Assembly (NCBI RefSeq): GCF_002127655.1
Contig: NZ_NEHB01000003.1
Location: forward strand, 237,957-301,956
DNA length: 64,000 nt
Origin: Janthinobacterium sp. GW456P
GTDB lineage: Bacteria > Pseudomonadota > Gammaproteobacteria > Burkholderiales > Burkholderiaceae_D
Direction: 5' to 3'
Shown here one piece after another: positions 60,271 to 64,000 of the stretch. The notes under the pieces are model-generated. The model saw only the letters and a program-made list of their open reading frames with translations, ran no database searches and was not told the DNA's origin. The stretch's first letter is position 1. Every line of letters begins with the position of its first letter. The translations under genes were made by a program, and so were the position numbers.

Positions 60271-60582
60271 TTATTTGGCCATCGCATCCTTGGCCATGCC
60301 ATCCTTTTTCATTTCATCCTTCTTCATGGCGTCTTTTGCCATGGCATCTTTCGCCATGCCATCCTTGGCCATGTGGTCCTTCTTCATGTGTTTCTTGGCC
60401 ATCGGCTTGTGCATGCCGTCCTTGTCCATCGCATCCTTGTGCATGGCGTCCTTGTGCATGGCATCGGCCGAGGCATCCTTGGCCATAGCGTCTTTTTTCA
60501 TGGCGTCCTGCGCGAAAGCGGCGCCCGACATGAGGATGGCGGAAGCGATGATGGCGGCGAAGGTGGTGATGGTGGTTTTCAT
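60271..60582 (-). CDS. pentapeptide MXKDX repeat protein
   Basis: 103 residues: a signal peptide (about 1-24, ending AAFAQ) and then almost only repeats of the type M-x-K-D-x (AMKKDAMAKDASADAMHKDAMHKDAM and so on), about 15 copies. This is the TIGR02953-type MXKDX protein of betaproteobacteria. The mature part is nearly all Met, Lys, Asp and small residues, and would be disordered. Met- and Asp-rich repeats may bind copper or other metals, which is inference. The DNA is a short imperfect tandem repeat and prone to slippage. AAGGAC lies before the start. Confidence 0.85.
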   Translation of the reverse strand: MKTTITTFAAIIASAILMSGAAFAQDAMKKDAMAKDASADAMHKDAMHKDAMDKDGMHKPMAKKHMKKDHMAKDGMAKDAMAKDAMKKDEMKKDGMAKDAMAK

Positions 60583-60670: not shown

Positions 60671-60773
60671 AGGAAGGTCGGGAGGTGGTCAGGGCCAGGC
60701 GCATTGCCGCAGGCAGTACGAGTAGTACGACAAGGCAATGCAACGCCGCCCTGGCCGCCTCCCCGGCCTTCCT
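60671..60773. repeat. long inverted repeat after the molybdoenzyme gene
   Basis: Arms at 60671-60708 and 60733-60773 pair over about 33 positions, with one bulge and one small internal loop around a ~24-base loop. Mismatches in the outer stem are T opposite G, so the stem stays paired in RNA made from the plus strand but is disrupted in RNA made from the minus strand. It begins at the stop of the molybdoenzyme gene and has no T-run. The rest of 60583-60670 holds nothing I can name. Confidence 0.65.
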
Positions 60774-61542
60774 AGGAGCCGCCGAACCAGTTGTAGCCCT
60801 GATTCTCCCAATACCCTCCCGGGTAGGTATTCGTCACAAAAATGGCCTGGATGTGCTTGGGATTCTTGTAGCCCAGCTTGGTCGGCATGCGCAGTTTCAT
60901 CGGGTAGCCATACTTGGGCGGCAATGCCTGGCCGTCATACGTCAAGGCCATGATGGTTTGCGGATGCAGGGCCGTGGCCATGTCGATGCTCGTGAAATAA
61001 TCGTCGGCGCACTTGAAGCCGATGTATTTCGCCGTCGTGTCGGCGCCGATCCGCTGCAGAAAGTGCGAAAACGGCACGCCGCCCCACTTGCCGATGGCGC
61101 TCCAGCCTTCCACGCAGATGTGGCGCGTCACCTGCGTTTCCTGCGGCAAGGCGCGCAGCTGCGGCAGGGTCCACGGCTTCTTGTCAGCGATCAAGCCGCT
61201 CAATTCCAGGCGCCAGGCGTCGCCGTCGACCTCTTCCACCTCGTCTTCGCCGTAATAGGCATTGAAGGGAAACGGCTTTGTGATCATGGAGTCCGGATAC
61301 GTCGGCGCCAGTTTATTGGGGTCGAACAGCCAGCCCTGCACCCGGTCATTCATGCGCGACACCGCCGTCAGGGCCGTTTCGATGCCGGACGGGTCGCCGA
61401 CGTTGCAGCCCGTCAGCAGGGCCAGGCCGCCCAAGGTCAAGCTGCGCTGCAAAAACAGGCGGCGCGACGGCTGTTTGATCTGGCGCAAGGCGTCGGCCAG
61501 CATGGCCTGGCCCTGCTCCGGCACGATGATGGTCTTTTTCAT
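60772..61542 (-). CDS. Tat-exported molybdopterin oxidoreductase (sulfite-oxidase fold)
   Basis: 256 residues. The signal carries a twin-arginine motif (SRRLFLQ) and an apparent lipobox LLTGC, so a Tat-exported lipoprotein is likely. The body is the SUOX/MsrP-type fold: WRLELSGLIADKKPWTLPQLRALPQETQVTRHICVEGWSAIGKWGGVPF, with the Cys in RHICVEGW as the molybdenum ligand, and later PLRMPTKLGYKNPKHIQAIFVT. It resembles methionine-sulfoxide reductase MsrP and related oxidoreductases. The electron partner is likely the cytochrome b next door. The long inverted repeat follows at its stop. Confidence 0.9.
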   Translation of the reverse strand: MKKTIIVPEQGQAMLADALRQIKQPSRRLFLQRSLTLGGLALLTGCNVGDPSGIETALTAVSRMNDRVQGWLFDPNKLAPTYPDSMITKPFPFNAYYGEDEVEEVDGDAWRLELSGLIADKKPWTLPQLRALPQETQVTRHICVEGWSAIGKWGGVPFSHFLQRIGADTTAKYIGFKCADDYFTSIDMATALHPQTIMALTYDGQALPPKYGYPMKLRMPTKLGYKNPKHIQAIFVTNTYPGGYWENQGYNWFGGS

Positions 61543-61553
61543 GATGTTCTCCT

Positions 61554-62159
61554 TCAGCGGCCGCGCAGCATGGCGACCAGGGTGCGCGGCACCAGCGCCA
61601 CCATCAGCAAGTGCACGCCGACAAAGCCCGTCAGCAGCGCCATGGCGATGAAATGCACGCGGCGCGCGCTCTCGTAGCCGCCCATCAGCTCGCGCAGCAT
61701 GGGGAACTGCACGGATTTCCACAGCACCAGGCCGGACAGCACCAGCACGATGCAGTCAAACATGACAAACAGATAGGCGGCGCGCTGCACCATGTTGTAG
61801 TGGCGCGGATCGGCATGCGTCAGCTTGCCCTTCAGCGCGGCAACAAAATCGGCCAGCAGCGCTCGCGGCGTCAAGGGAAAGAACTGGCGCCGCAGCCGTC
61901 CCGAGGCGATATTGATGATCAGGTACAGCAAGCCATTGGCCACCAGCAGCCACATGGCGGCGAAATGCCATTGCAGGGCGCCGCCCAGCCAGCCGCCCAG
62001 GGTCAGCGCGCGCGGCAGCTCGAACGGAAAGAATGGCGCCGCGTTGTAGATGCGCCAGCCGCTGGTGGCCAGCACCACCACGGCCACGGCATTGAGCCAG
62101 TGCGTCAGGCGCAGCCAGGCGGGGTGGATGGTGGCGCCGGGCAAGGTTGAGGTATGCAT
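61554..62159 (-). CDS. cytochrome b561-type membrane protein
   Basis: 201 residues with four main hydrophobic helices: LTHWLNAVAVVVLATSGWRIY, WHFAAMWLLVANGLLYLIINI, LFVMFDCIVLVLSGLVLW and HFIAMALLTGFVGVHLLMVALV. Histidines at helices 1, 2 and 4 can ligate two hemes b, as in Ni-hydrogenase-type cytochrome b. It likely feeds electrons to the molybdoenzyme next door; MsrPQ is an analogous but different pair. The ATG overlaps the DUF1223 stop (TGATG), and 11 bases separate it from the molybdoenzyme. Confidence 0.88.
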   Translation of the reverse strand: MHTSTLPGATIHPAWLRLTHWLNAVAVVVLATSGWRIYNAAPFFPFELPRALTLGGWLGGALQWHFAAMWLLVANGLLYLIINIASGRLRRQFFPLTPRALLADFVAALKGKLTHADPRHYNMVQRAAYLFVMFDCIVLVLSGLVLWKSVQFPMLRELMGGYESARRVHFIAMALLTGFVGVHLLMVALVPRTLVAMLRGR

Positions 62160-62965
62160 CACAACACTCCTTTCGCGCATTGCGCCGTGCTGACGGCTTG
62201 CAGGATGGCGCTGCTGTCAGCCCGCTGCACGAAGGCGACCACTTGCAGCTGCTCCGGGCGCCAGCTGGCGGGCAGATTGACCTCGCGGCGCAGCTGGGCG
62301 CGGCCTTGCGCCAGCGCAACCGGCCCCAGCCACAGGCGCACGGCCGCATCGTGATGCAAGGTGGCGCCCCGGTTTTCGCCGCGCAGCACTGTCGAGACGA
62401 TGGCGCTTTCGCTGATGGCCACATACAGCTGGCCGCCCGTTTGCGCGTCCGGCGCGCTGGCATAGGCTTCCAGCAGTAATTTGCCACCCGGACCCGGCGT
62501 GGCGGACAGGCCAATATTGACGGGCGCGGCGGTCGCGTTGATGCGGCGGATGGCCGCTGGCAGCTGCGTATCCCAGCCGCGCAATTCCGTGCCGCCCACA
62601 AAGAACTGGGGCGTGTAGGCGACATGGCGCGGCTGGTGGCGCAGCAGTTCGGCCTGGCGCGCATCGAACTGCGCCTGCGCCAGCGGGTCCGCCCAGCCGA
62701 TCTGGTCCCAGTAGGTGACGTGCAGGGCCAGCGGCACGACCAGGCCGGCCGCCGCCGCGTCCCTGCGCAAGGCGCTCAGGCGCTGGTCGGCGGGCGGGCA
62801 GCTGGAGCAGCCTTCGCTGCTGTACAGCTCCACCAGCGCCGCCGTCTGCGGCCCGCTTTTGACTTCGCAGCGCTGGCCGGCCGCCATCTGCGCGGCGGCC
62901 GGCGCTGCCACAGCCATGCTCAGCAAGGGTAAAAGTAGTGTTGCAAGACGGTGCTTGATGTCCAT
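62159..62965 (-). CDS. DUF1223 family secreted thioredoxin-like protein
   Basis: 268 residues with a signal peptide (about 1-25, ending AAPAAAQ). AALVELYSSEGCSSCPPADQRLSAL is the DUF1223 opening, with a C-x-x-C in a thioredoxin-like position; LHVTYWDQIGWADP is the second signature. The family is widespread in proteobacteria but has no proven function; the CxxC suggests redox or metal handling in the periplasm. It heads the three-gene operon. The GTAACC-N16-CGAA promoter lies 48 bases upstream, so sigma control is expected. Confidence 0.9.
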   Translation of the reverse strand: MDIKHRLATLLLPLLSMAVAAPAAAQMAAGQRCEVKSGPQTAALVELYSSEGCSSCPPADQRLSALRRDAAAAGLVVPLALHVTYWDQIGWADPLAQAQFDARQAELLRHQPRHVAYTPQFFVGGTELRGWDTQLPAAIRRINATAAPVNIGLSATPGPGGKLLLEAYASAPDAQTGGQLYVAISESAIVSTVLRGENRGATLHHDAAVRLWLGPVALAQGRAQLRREVNLPASWRPEQLQVVAFVQRADSSAILQAVSTAQCAKGVL

Positions 62966-63012
62966 GGTCGTTAGCCGGTATATTAAAAATAAGAAGCGTG
63001 CTTGCCTGTCAA

Positions 63013-63038
63013 TTCGCCGCACCATGCGGATTGGTTAC
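63013..63038 (-). promoter_or_regulatory. SigF-type ECF promoter of the DUF1223 operon
   Basis: Minus strand: GTAACC (63038-63033), 16 bases, CGAA (63016-63013). This matches the promoter motif I recall for Caulobacter SigF. The next gene starts 48 bases further. It lies in the 130-base gap shared with the divergent sigma gene. Confidence 0.65.
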
Positions 63039-63079
63039 AGCCACCCTCAAATAATTTAAGATTTATTTTTTCAATGCCT

Positions 63080-63105
63080 GTCACCAAAGGCCTGCATGCA
63101 ACGAA
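63080..63105 (+). promoter_or_regulatory. possible autoregulatory SigF-type promoter
   Basis: Plus strand: GTCACC (63080-63085), 16 bases, CGAA (63102-63105), one mismatch to the promoter upstream of the DUF1223 gene. It overlaps the first ATG of the sigma gene (63096), so a transcript from here would need a downstream start such as the ATG at 63156. Confidence 0.4.
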
Positions 63106-63692
63106 TACCTGTAAGCGAACACCTGCATGGCACGGAATTGCGGCTGCATGGCTTGATGCTGCGCGGGCTGGACGGCGATGCGGCCGCCTACCGCGCTTTC
63201 CTGCAGGCCACCAGCGGCCATTTGCGCGCCTTCCTGCGGCGCCGGCTGCAGCGCTGGCCGGACGAAGTGGAAGACCTGGTGCAGGAGTGCTTGCTGGCCA
63301 TCCACAACCAGCGCCTGAGCTACGATACCGGCGTGCCGCTGACGTCGTGGATCCATGCAATTGCGCGCTATAAATTGATCGACTGGCTGCGCCGGCATGC
63401 GCGGCGCGAAGCGCAGCACTTGCCGTATGACGAAGAAGATAGCGCGCAGGAACTGTTTTCCAGCGCCGATGCCGACGCGGCCGAGGCCAGCCGCGACCTG
63501 GGCAAATTGCTGGCCAGCTTGCCGGCCCAGCAGCGCGACGCCATCGTGCATACCAAGCTCGACGGATGGTCCGTGCGCGACACGGCGGCGGCCATGCGGA
63601 TTTCGGAAGCCAGCGTCAAAGTGGCCGTGCATCGCGGCTTGAAGGCACTGGCGGCCCATTTAAGAACAGGCAATGAAGGGATTGCATCATGA
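63096..63692 (+). CDS. sigF: ECF sigma factor, SigF-like
   Basis: 198 residues as given from the ATG at 63096. Region 2 is at about 25-90 (AAAYRAFLQATSGHLRAFLRRRLQRWPDEVEDLVQECLLAIHNQR), region 4 at about 125-185 (SLPAQQRDAIVHTKLDGWSVRDTAAAMRISEASVKVAVHRGLKALAAHL). No sensor domain is attached. It is followed with overlap by a DUF1109 gene, the arrangement of SigF-NrsF in Caulobacter, where the pair answers metal and redox stress. The start is uncertain: 63156 gives the more usual N terminus (MLRGLDGDAAAYRAF). The symbol is from family and synteny. Confidence 0.85.
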   Translation: MQRIPVSEHLHGTELRLHGLMLRGLDGDAAAYRAFLQATSGHLRAFLRRRLQRWPDEVEDLVQECLLAIHNQRLSYDTGVPLTSWIHAIARYKLIDWLRRHARREAQHLPYDEEDSAQELFSSADADAAEASRDLGKLLASLPAQQRDAIVHTKLDGWSVRDTAAAMRISEASVKVAVHRGLKALAAHLRTGNEGIAS

Positions 63693-64000
63693 AAACCGAT
63701 GACTTGATCGCCATGCTGGCCAGCGGCCCCGACGTGGCCGCCGCGCCGCCGCCCGGCACGCACTGGCGCGCCGCCGCCACCCTGGGCGCCGGCTTGCTGG
63801 CCAGCGTGGCGCTGATGGCCATGCTGCTGGGCGTGCGGCCCAACCTGGAACAGCTGGCCCTGCTGCCCGACTTCTGGATCAAGGTCGGTTTCGTCATCTG
63901 CCTCTCCCTGGCGGCCTGGCATGTCAGCCGCCGCCTGTGCATGCCCGGTGCGCCCGCGCGCGCCCTGCCCCTGCTGCTGGCCATGCCCCTGCTGCTGATG
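63689..64000 (+). CDS. nrsF: DUF1109 (NrsF-type) anti-sigma factor, N-terminal part
   Basis: Starts at the ATG at 63689, overlapping the sigma stop, and runs past the end of the window; 104 residues visible. It begins MKTDDLIAMLASGPDVAAAPPPGTHW, then hydrophobic helices (AATLGAGLLASVALMAMLLGVR, WIKVGFVICLSLAAWHVSR, ALPLLLAMPLLLM), the opening of the six-helix DUF1109 family. In Caulobacter, NrsF is the membrane anti-sigma factor of SigF. The overlap with the sigma gene supports the same role here. Cysteine residues key to sensing lie partly beyond the window. Confidence 0.85.
   Translation, partial: MKTDDLIAMLASGPDVAAAPPPGTHWRAAATLGAGLLASVALMAMLLGVRPNLEQLALLPDFWIKVGFVICLSLAAWHVSRRLCMPGAPARALPLLLAMPLLLM

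Follow-up and report, generated by a model that had tools for sequence, protein, structure and literature searches.

A SigF/NrsF-linked molybdoenzyme operon in Janthinobacterium: a probable oxidant-switched methionine cycle with DUF1223 as a recurrent, optional part

The SigF/NrsF–MrpX–YedY1 system of Azospira suillum PS was reportedly described by Melnyk in 2015. Genes of the same kinds confer resistance to hypochlorous acid (HOCl) or peroxide in Azospira (PMC4623255, PMC5748585), in Brucella, where they form bcrXQP (PMC8315932), and in uropathogenic Escherichia coli, where they form c3566-c3568 (PMC8550376); statements about these and all other cited papers refer to the portions of their text that were available. 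Here we analyse a related locus at the end of a 64,000-nucleotide stretch of DNA from Janthinobacterium sp. GW456P (contig NZ_NEHB01000003.1), hereafter the window. In it a sigma factor gene, sigF, and its anti-sigma gene, nrsF, stand divergently from genes for a DUF1223 protein, a b-type cytochrome and a molybdopterin (Mo) protein, followed by a gene for a methionine-rich MXKDX peptide. A sequence-only reading had predicted a stress-induced periplasmic repair or reduction system here and had missed the kindred systems just named. Methionine-cycle systems of this kind are already described, and it is DUF1223 that is the unusual and little-studied extra part. We consider it probable that the locus is a SigF/NrsF-controlled, oxidant-switched methionine cycle in which DUF1223 is a recurrent, optional component.

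As described, the Azospira system shares with the window a SigF/NrsF pair, a methionine-rich peptide, a YedY-type enzyme and a quinone-side membrane partner; the available text makes no mention of DUF1223 (PMC4623255, PMC5748585). Among the loci compared here, one from an uncultured Azonexus (L112) has SigF-NrsF, cytochrome, Mo and MXKDX genes and no DUF1223. Brucella melitensis bcrS-abcS/bcrXQP likewise pairs an ECF16 sigma factor and a DUF1109 anti-sigma factor with a divergent operon and has a methionine-rich MXKDX protein, a methionine sulfoxide reductase (Msr) pair and GTAACC/CGAA sites; it differs in its gene order, X-Q-P, and in a partner described as an MsrQ homologue, and DUF1223 goes unmentioned in the text available (PMC8315932). 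In uropathogenic E. coli a cytochrome B, an MsrP-like protein and a methionine-rich peptide are again encoded in one operon, but the regulator is the two-component system OrhK/OrhR, the signal is H2O2 and the accessible text is silent on DUF1223 (PMC8550376).

Two further systems resemble the window chiefly in their regulators. Caulobacter crescentus SigF-NrsF matches it in the regulator pair, the promoter motif, the two NrsF cysteines and a YedY-type target, and differs in its further targets (DUF2282, DUF692, DUF2063 and DoxX genes) and in its chromium/cadmium signal (PMC3511200). The ECF16 pair EcfF/OsrA of Bradyrhizobium japonicum controls Msr genes and a periplasmic thioredoxin, with MsrA/B reductases and a DsbD-like donor in place of the Mo enzyme and cytochrome; within this regulon of MsrA/B, periplasmic thioredoxin and DsbD-like protein, the authors suggest that the latter feed an Msr (PMC3420878).

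The features of the window locus, all within its last 3.7 kb, are as follows.

63689..64000, plus strand: nrsF, a DUF1109 anti-sigma factor gene (PF06532), start part only, extending past the window end
63096..63692, plus strand: sigF-type gene for an extracytoplasmic function (ECF) sigma factor (Sigma70_r2, Sigma70_r4_2, PRK12536)
63080..63105, plus strand: predicted autoregulatory SigF promoter, GTCACC-N16-CGAA, one mismatch to the motif
63013..63038, minus strand: predicted SigF promoter of the operon, GTAACC-N16-CGAA, exact motif
62159..62965, minus strand: DUF1223 gene (PF06764), for a thioredoxin-fold protein with a signal-peptide-like N-terminus and the motif CSSC (C53, C56)
61554..62159, minus strand: gene for a PF01292 b-type cytochrome
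60772..61542, minus strand: gene for an MsrP-like molybdopterin protein (PF00174), a predicted twin-arginine translocation (Tat) lipoprotein (RR27-28, C46)
60271..60582, minus strand: gene for a secreted, methionine-rich, MrpX-like MXKDX peptide (TIGR02953)

The nrsF start at 63689 overlaps the sigF stop as ATGA. This overlapping pair, divergent from the DUF1223, cytochrome b and Mo genes, had been proposed from the sequence, and all the parts named then were found, their family matches lying above cut-off. The MXKDX gene had been overlooked; it lies outside the coordinates given then.

The motif GTAACC-N16-CGAA, earlier named as that of Caulobacter SigF, is indeed so reported (PMC3511200). 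As a string it is weak evidence: at up to two mismatches the window holds 32 matches against 31.2 in shuffles, and at up to one mismatch the whole genome holds 165 against 269 for the reversed pattern. Only three of the 165 are exact, the two outside this locus falling inside other open reading frames (ORFs). Prediction of a regulon from the string was rejected, its genome matches being rarer than those of the reversed control. The conserved position of the motif is, however, far beyond chance. We took 120 loci with a Mo match above 300 bits, after dropping the duplicates L098, L103 and L122; the named loci are the best 80 of at least 581 confirmed candidates, and the later loci L178-L209 stand outside this count and that of 116 used below. 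Of the 36 loci with SigF, 34 have an exact operon-strand site in the 3.5 kb upstream of the Mo frame; of the 84 without SigF none has one, and the reversed control motif is found in neither group. L099, which carries sigF downstream and in the same orientation, and L101, whose site has one mismatch, are the exceptions. In 79 SigF-free loci no site upstream of the cytochrome has fewer than two mismatches, and exact sites occur in 3.2% of random segments taken from the loci with the true sites left in. On the sigF side, 36 relative rows (two duplicate loci kept) comprise 17 exact sites, 12 with one mismatch, one with two and six that are worse. In this comparison L094 was scored at five mismatches on a shortened region; a separate scan shows exact sites there. 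The predicted SigF promoter of the operon thus gains good support from other genomes, and the motif stands before both the operon (exact) and sigF (one mismatch) in the window, a strong comparative test over many loci.

Start codons were picked by eye. For DUF1223 the most likely start is the ATG at 62965, which gives the signal-peptide-like N-terminus; the longer reading from 63025 would have the ORF cross the promoter. The most likely cytochrome start is the ATG at 62159, which is preceded by AAAGGAG and shares one base with the DUF1223 stop. The sigF ATG at 63096 falls within the predicted sigF promoter and overlaps its predicted -10 element, so that a transcript from there needs a later start; the true one may be the next in-frame ATG, at 63156. 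In Bradyrhizobium, too, the mapped ecfF transcript start overlaps the annotated sigma factor ATG (PMC3420878). The interval 63096-63156 suggests that sigF starts across this group may be annotated too far upstream. Past the window, downstream of nrsF (L003:6676-11487), are three more long ORFs and one that resembles a second ECF sigma factor gene through a weak SigF match.

The identity of the regulator pair as SigF and NrsF, proposed earlier, is supported by family matches: both Sigma70_r2 and Sigma70_r4_2 exceed the Pfam cut-off, the sigma factor scores 271.6 bits on NCBIfam PRK12536 (cut-off 250), and the gene that follows matches PF06532 above cut-off in two pieces flanking a stretch that reads N, as expected of an ECF16-type pair. 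Two cysteines on the periplasmic side are conserved, the first in 58 of 58 relative NrsF rows and the second in 49 (duplicates included, the broken row of the window's own protein left out), and by eye both are present in the window's protein beyond the window end. In nine rows (L047-L055) Glu replaces the second cysteine and more divergent SigF proteins adjoin, perhaps indicating a different sensing mode. One SigF-linked module stands beside a tandem pair of nrsF genes followed by DUF1223 (L034:7585-8967). NrsF-type cysteines matter for control in Caulobacter and Bradyrhizobium (PMC3511200, PMC3420878). Known inducers of such systems are chromium and cadmium for Caulobacter SigF, which does not respond to generators of reactive oxygen species (PMC3511200), H2O2 for Bradyrhizobium EcfF (PMC3420878), HOCl for the Brucella ECF16 system (PMC8315932) and reactive chlorine for the Azospira SigF system (PMC5748585, PMC4623255). 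For the window locus, the MXKDX peptide points to hypochlorite-type oxidants as the likeliest inducer. The sequence-only reading had left the signal as metal or redox; because of the methionine-rich peptide, a hypochlorite-type or peroxide signal appears likelier than metals.

E. coli MsrP is a soluble periplasmic protein and MsrQ is of ferric-reductase type. The window's Mo protein resembles MsrP in its PF00174 family and in its cysteine loop (CVEGWS against CVEAWS), but is a predicted lipoprotein accompanied by a PF01292 cytochrome. It scores 104.8 bits on PF00174, above cut-off, and 80.2 bits on the NCBIfam MsrP equivalog, below the cut-off of 207; 1xdq is its best relative by sequence, and its model (predicted local distance difference test 75.6) matches the folds 1xdy/1xdq with template modelling scores of 0.53-0.57 on the query. 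Alignment places the Mo-ligand cysteine at C143. By family, sequence and fold it is therefore closest to MsrP. All 28 relatives compared keep the twin arginine RR27-28 and the lipobox cysteine C46, which is why we predict a Tat lipoprotein, as had been proposed. Named homologues among the matches listed come from Janthinobacterium and are 91-96% identical. The genome has three further PF00174 matches, one of them a full MsrP (L199) with 485.4 bits on the MsrP model, and we read the window enzyme, by analogy, as a second and inducible sulfoxide reductase.

The cytochrome scores 90.5 bits on PF01292, above cut-off. A Pfam search at E-values up to 0.001 found in it, besides a weak DUF4405 match, no PF01794, which we take to be the ferric-reductase-type domain of MsrQ, and MsrQ was accordingly rejected as the partner of the Mo enzyme in favour of the PF01292 protein. 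Cytochrome and Mo genes adjoin in 115 of the 116 loci with a Mo match above 330 bits (the same three duplicates dropped), the single exception beginning at a contig end. This fits the route from quinone pool via cytochrome b to molybdoenzyme that had been predicted, as far as gene neighbourhood goes, without amounting to proof.

The MXKDX peptide has 103 residues with MXKDX repeats and a signal-peptide-like start, and scores 89.8 bits on TIGR02953 (cut-off 41). Its predicted mature part counts 15 Met among 79 residues and lacks Cys. This makes it MrpX-like; in Azospira, MrpX is reported to be oxidized sacrificially by hypochlorite (PMC5748585). Its gene lies 189 bases below the Mo gene; a simple scan of the operon strand found no terminator between them, and co-transcription is assumed. 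Counting any open frame with at least three M.KD words, an MXKDX gene occurs in 88 of the 116 loci, 32 of the 35 with SigF and 56 of the 81 without. In the few SigF-free loci where an alternative regulator was examined, those of Serratia (L126) and Rahnella (L143) show a two-component system divergent from the module, resembling the OrhK/OrhR arrangement of uropathogenic E. coli (PMC8550376). From these pairings it follows that one effector module is found with different sensors.

DUF1223 scores 158.2 bits on PF06764, above cut-off, and 2axo, a thioredoxin-fold structure (PMC3091736), is matched both by sequence and as the best fold. The CxxC (C53, C56) is shared by all 41 sequences compared, C33 and C263 by 40 each; the structure model has low confidence around the CxxC. 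Sinorhizobium meliloti SrlA is likewise a 2axo homologue with a signal sequence and a CxxC, but is under CenK-CenR control, and no link to SigF or to a methionine-rich peptide is reported in the text available (PMC9561847). SrlA is required for tolerance of H2O2 and cumene hydroperoxide (PMC9561847). In the portions of the literature available on DUF1223, COG5429, Atu2684 and PF06764 we found no tie to SigF or to methionine-sulfoxide repair, the phenotype reported being that of SrlA (PMC9561847).

Sequence comparison establishes the gene content and order, the promoter footprint, the cysteines of NrsF relatives, the Tat and lipobox signals of the Mo protein and how often each gene recurs. On this basis we propose the following cycle, which is predicted to shield the cell envelope from bleach-like oxidants. 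Oxidation of the NrsF cysteines would set SigF free; the secreted MXKDX peptide would absorb hypochlorite-type oxidants as methionine sulfoxide; the cytochrome would pass electrons from the quinone pool to the Mo lipoprotein, which would turn the sulfoxide of the peptide back to methionine. DUF1223, as a thiol-disulfide protein, would hold cysteines of the system in the reduced state, those of MsrA/B where present and otherwise those of NrsF or other envelope proteins. What induces the system, the role of the peptide as bait, the path of the electrons and the reduction of the sulfoxide are inferred from characterised relatives. Several observations weigh against such a cycle. The predicted sulfoxide reductase falls well short of the MsrP model's cut-off; no SigF site at up to two mismatches precedes the MXKDX gene itself, and by the M.KD-word rule that gene is absent from three of the 35 SigF-linked loci. 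DUF1223 is lacking in 20 of those 35, and 30 of the 42 genomes of the order with DUF1223 have no MXKDX match. Finally, the metal inducers of Caulobacter SigF leave room for a metal signal (PMC3511200).

In our reading DUF1223 is a thiol-redox component that methionine cycles of this kind may have or lack, and one that recurs. It had been suggested as a partner of the molybdoenzyme; it does recur, but with 23 of the 116 Mo loci it is no constant partner, and it also occurs in an operon with MsrB and MsrA. In that operon (genome G003, L184:5365-7730) the row is MXKDX–DUF1223–MsrB–MsrA, with an exact GTAACC-N16-CGAA site upstream, while the sigF-nrsF pair sits on a different contig. Among 150 genomes of the order, DUF1223 was matched in 42, MXKDX in 25 and both in 12, and in seven of these 12 (G000, G003, G052, G058, G119, G137 and G140) the two genes lie no more than 6 kb apart. 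These counts rest on the order, because matches in the class were weak (MXKDX in 11 of 274 genomes, over cut-off in the window's own genome only). In a tree of 41 rows the linked DUF1223 copies fall into three parts, a clade of 20 (support 99/95), a clade of five (93/81) and L184, the last unsure in position owing to its long branch. In one further genome, G515, DUF1223 has a weak MXKDX frame as its direct neighbour.

Of the 23 Mo loci with DUF1223, eight have no linked SigF. In two of them (L107, L159) a one-mismatch site lies just upstream of DUF1223, and SigF may act there from elsewhere in the genome. Five DUF1223 modules (L074, L082, L085, L204 and L205) stand beside a frame that resembles SigF only faintly (37-43 bits); that of L082, the sole one checked, is an ECF-type sigma factor by Pfam, and L204 and L205 come from two of the four adjacency genomes that have no NrsF match. 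A second ECF group may thus control the same module. Directly before DUF1223 in two SigF-free modules is a gene for a carboxymuconolactone-decarboxylase (AhpD-like) protein (L107:5933-6478, just under cut-off, and L197:4490-5887).

Two roles for DUF1223, as reductant and as feedback element, both fit as predictions. In the second, DUF1223, made with the SigF regulon, would mainly re-reduce the periplasmic NrsF cysteines and so end the response. DUF1223 is commoner beside SigF, in 15 of 35 loci against eight of 81 others (odds ratio 6.8, Fisher P 0.0002, uncorrected for kinship, with six of the 15 from the window's genus), and the NrsF-type cysteines govern the response in Caulobacter and Bradyrhizobium (PMC3511200, PMC3420878). 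Moreover, a change to the CxxC of SrlA weakens repression of its own promoter and leaves salt tolerance intact (PMC9561847). On the other side stand the majority of SigF-linked loci without DUF1223 and the four of the seven adjacency genomes (G052, G058, G137, G140) in which DUF1223 adjoins MXKDX without any NrsF match. The latter weaken the idea that DUF1223 is solely an NrsF partner, and we regard feedback as its main function as doubtful, if worth keeping in mind. Since some modules have no NrsF, we favour the reductant role.

That DUF1223 merely shares promoters with the module, as an envelope protein that is otherwise a bystander, is unlikely. The domain is admittedly common without the module, being matched in 42 of 150 order genomes and 61 of 274 class genomes, and most copies in the retrieved neighbourhoods have other neighbours, but its closeness to MXKDX in seven of the 12 genomes with both, its presence beside two unrelated reductase types and the separate tree positions of the linked copies all argue otherwise. 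Less probable still is a system that mainly senses and answers metals such as chromate, cadmium or copper, with a Mo enzyme acting on something other than methionine sulfoxide: Caulobacter SigF, responsive to chromium and cadmium, controls a YedY-type gene through the same motif (PMC3511200) and SigF/NrsF genes are found within Buf1 copper-bufferin clusters (PMC12452194), but the MXKDX gene in 32 of 35 SigF-linked loci fits methionine oxidation. Also against it, the single DUF2282 (bufferin-type) gene of the window's own genome (L202, contig C55), scanned over 3.2 kb with spacers of 15-17, shows no SigF site even with one mismatch allowed, and a bufferin tie was rejected for this genome. In this it differs from the Caulobacter regulon.

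The analysis places the molybdoenzyme operon within known defence chemistry and offers a specific role for DUF1223 that can be put to the test. In its broadest form, which we put forward tentatively and hold at somewhat less than an even chance, DUF1223 would be the missing thiol-redox component of methionine cycling in the bacterial periplasm, having been recruited on more than one occasion alongside a methionine-rich bait. The reductase could be a Mo enzyme or MsrB-MsrA and the regulator SigF or another, and DUF1223 would link the redox state of cysteines to the cycle of bait and repair as well as to the ending of the response. If true, this reading would supply an orphan domain, matched in more than a fifth of the class genomes sampled, with a function.

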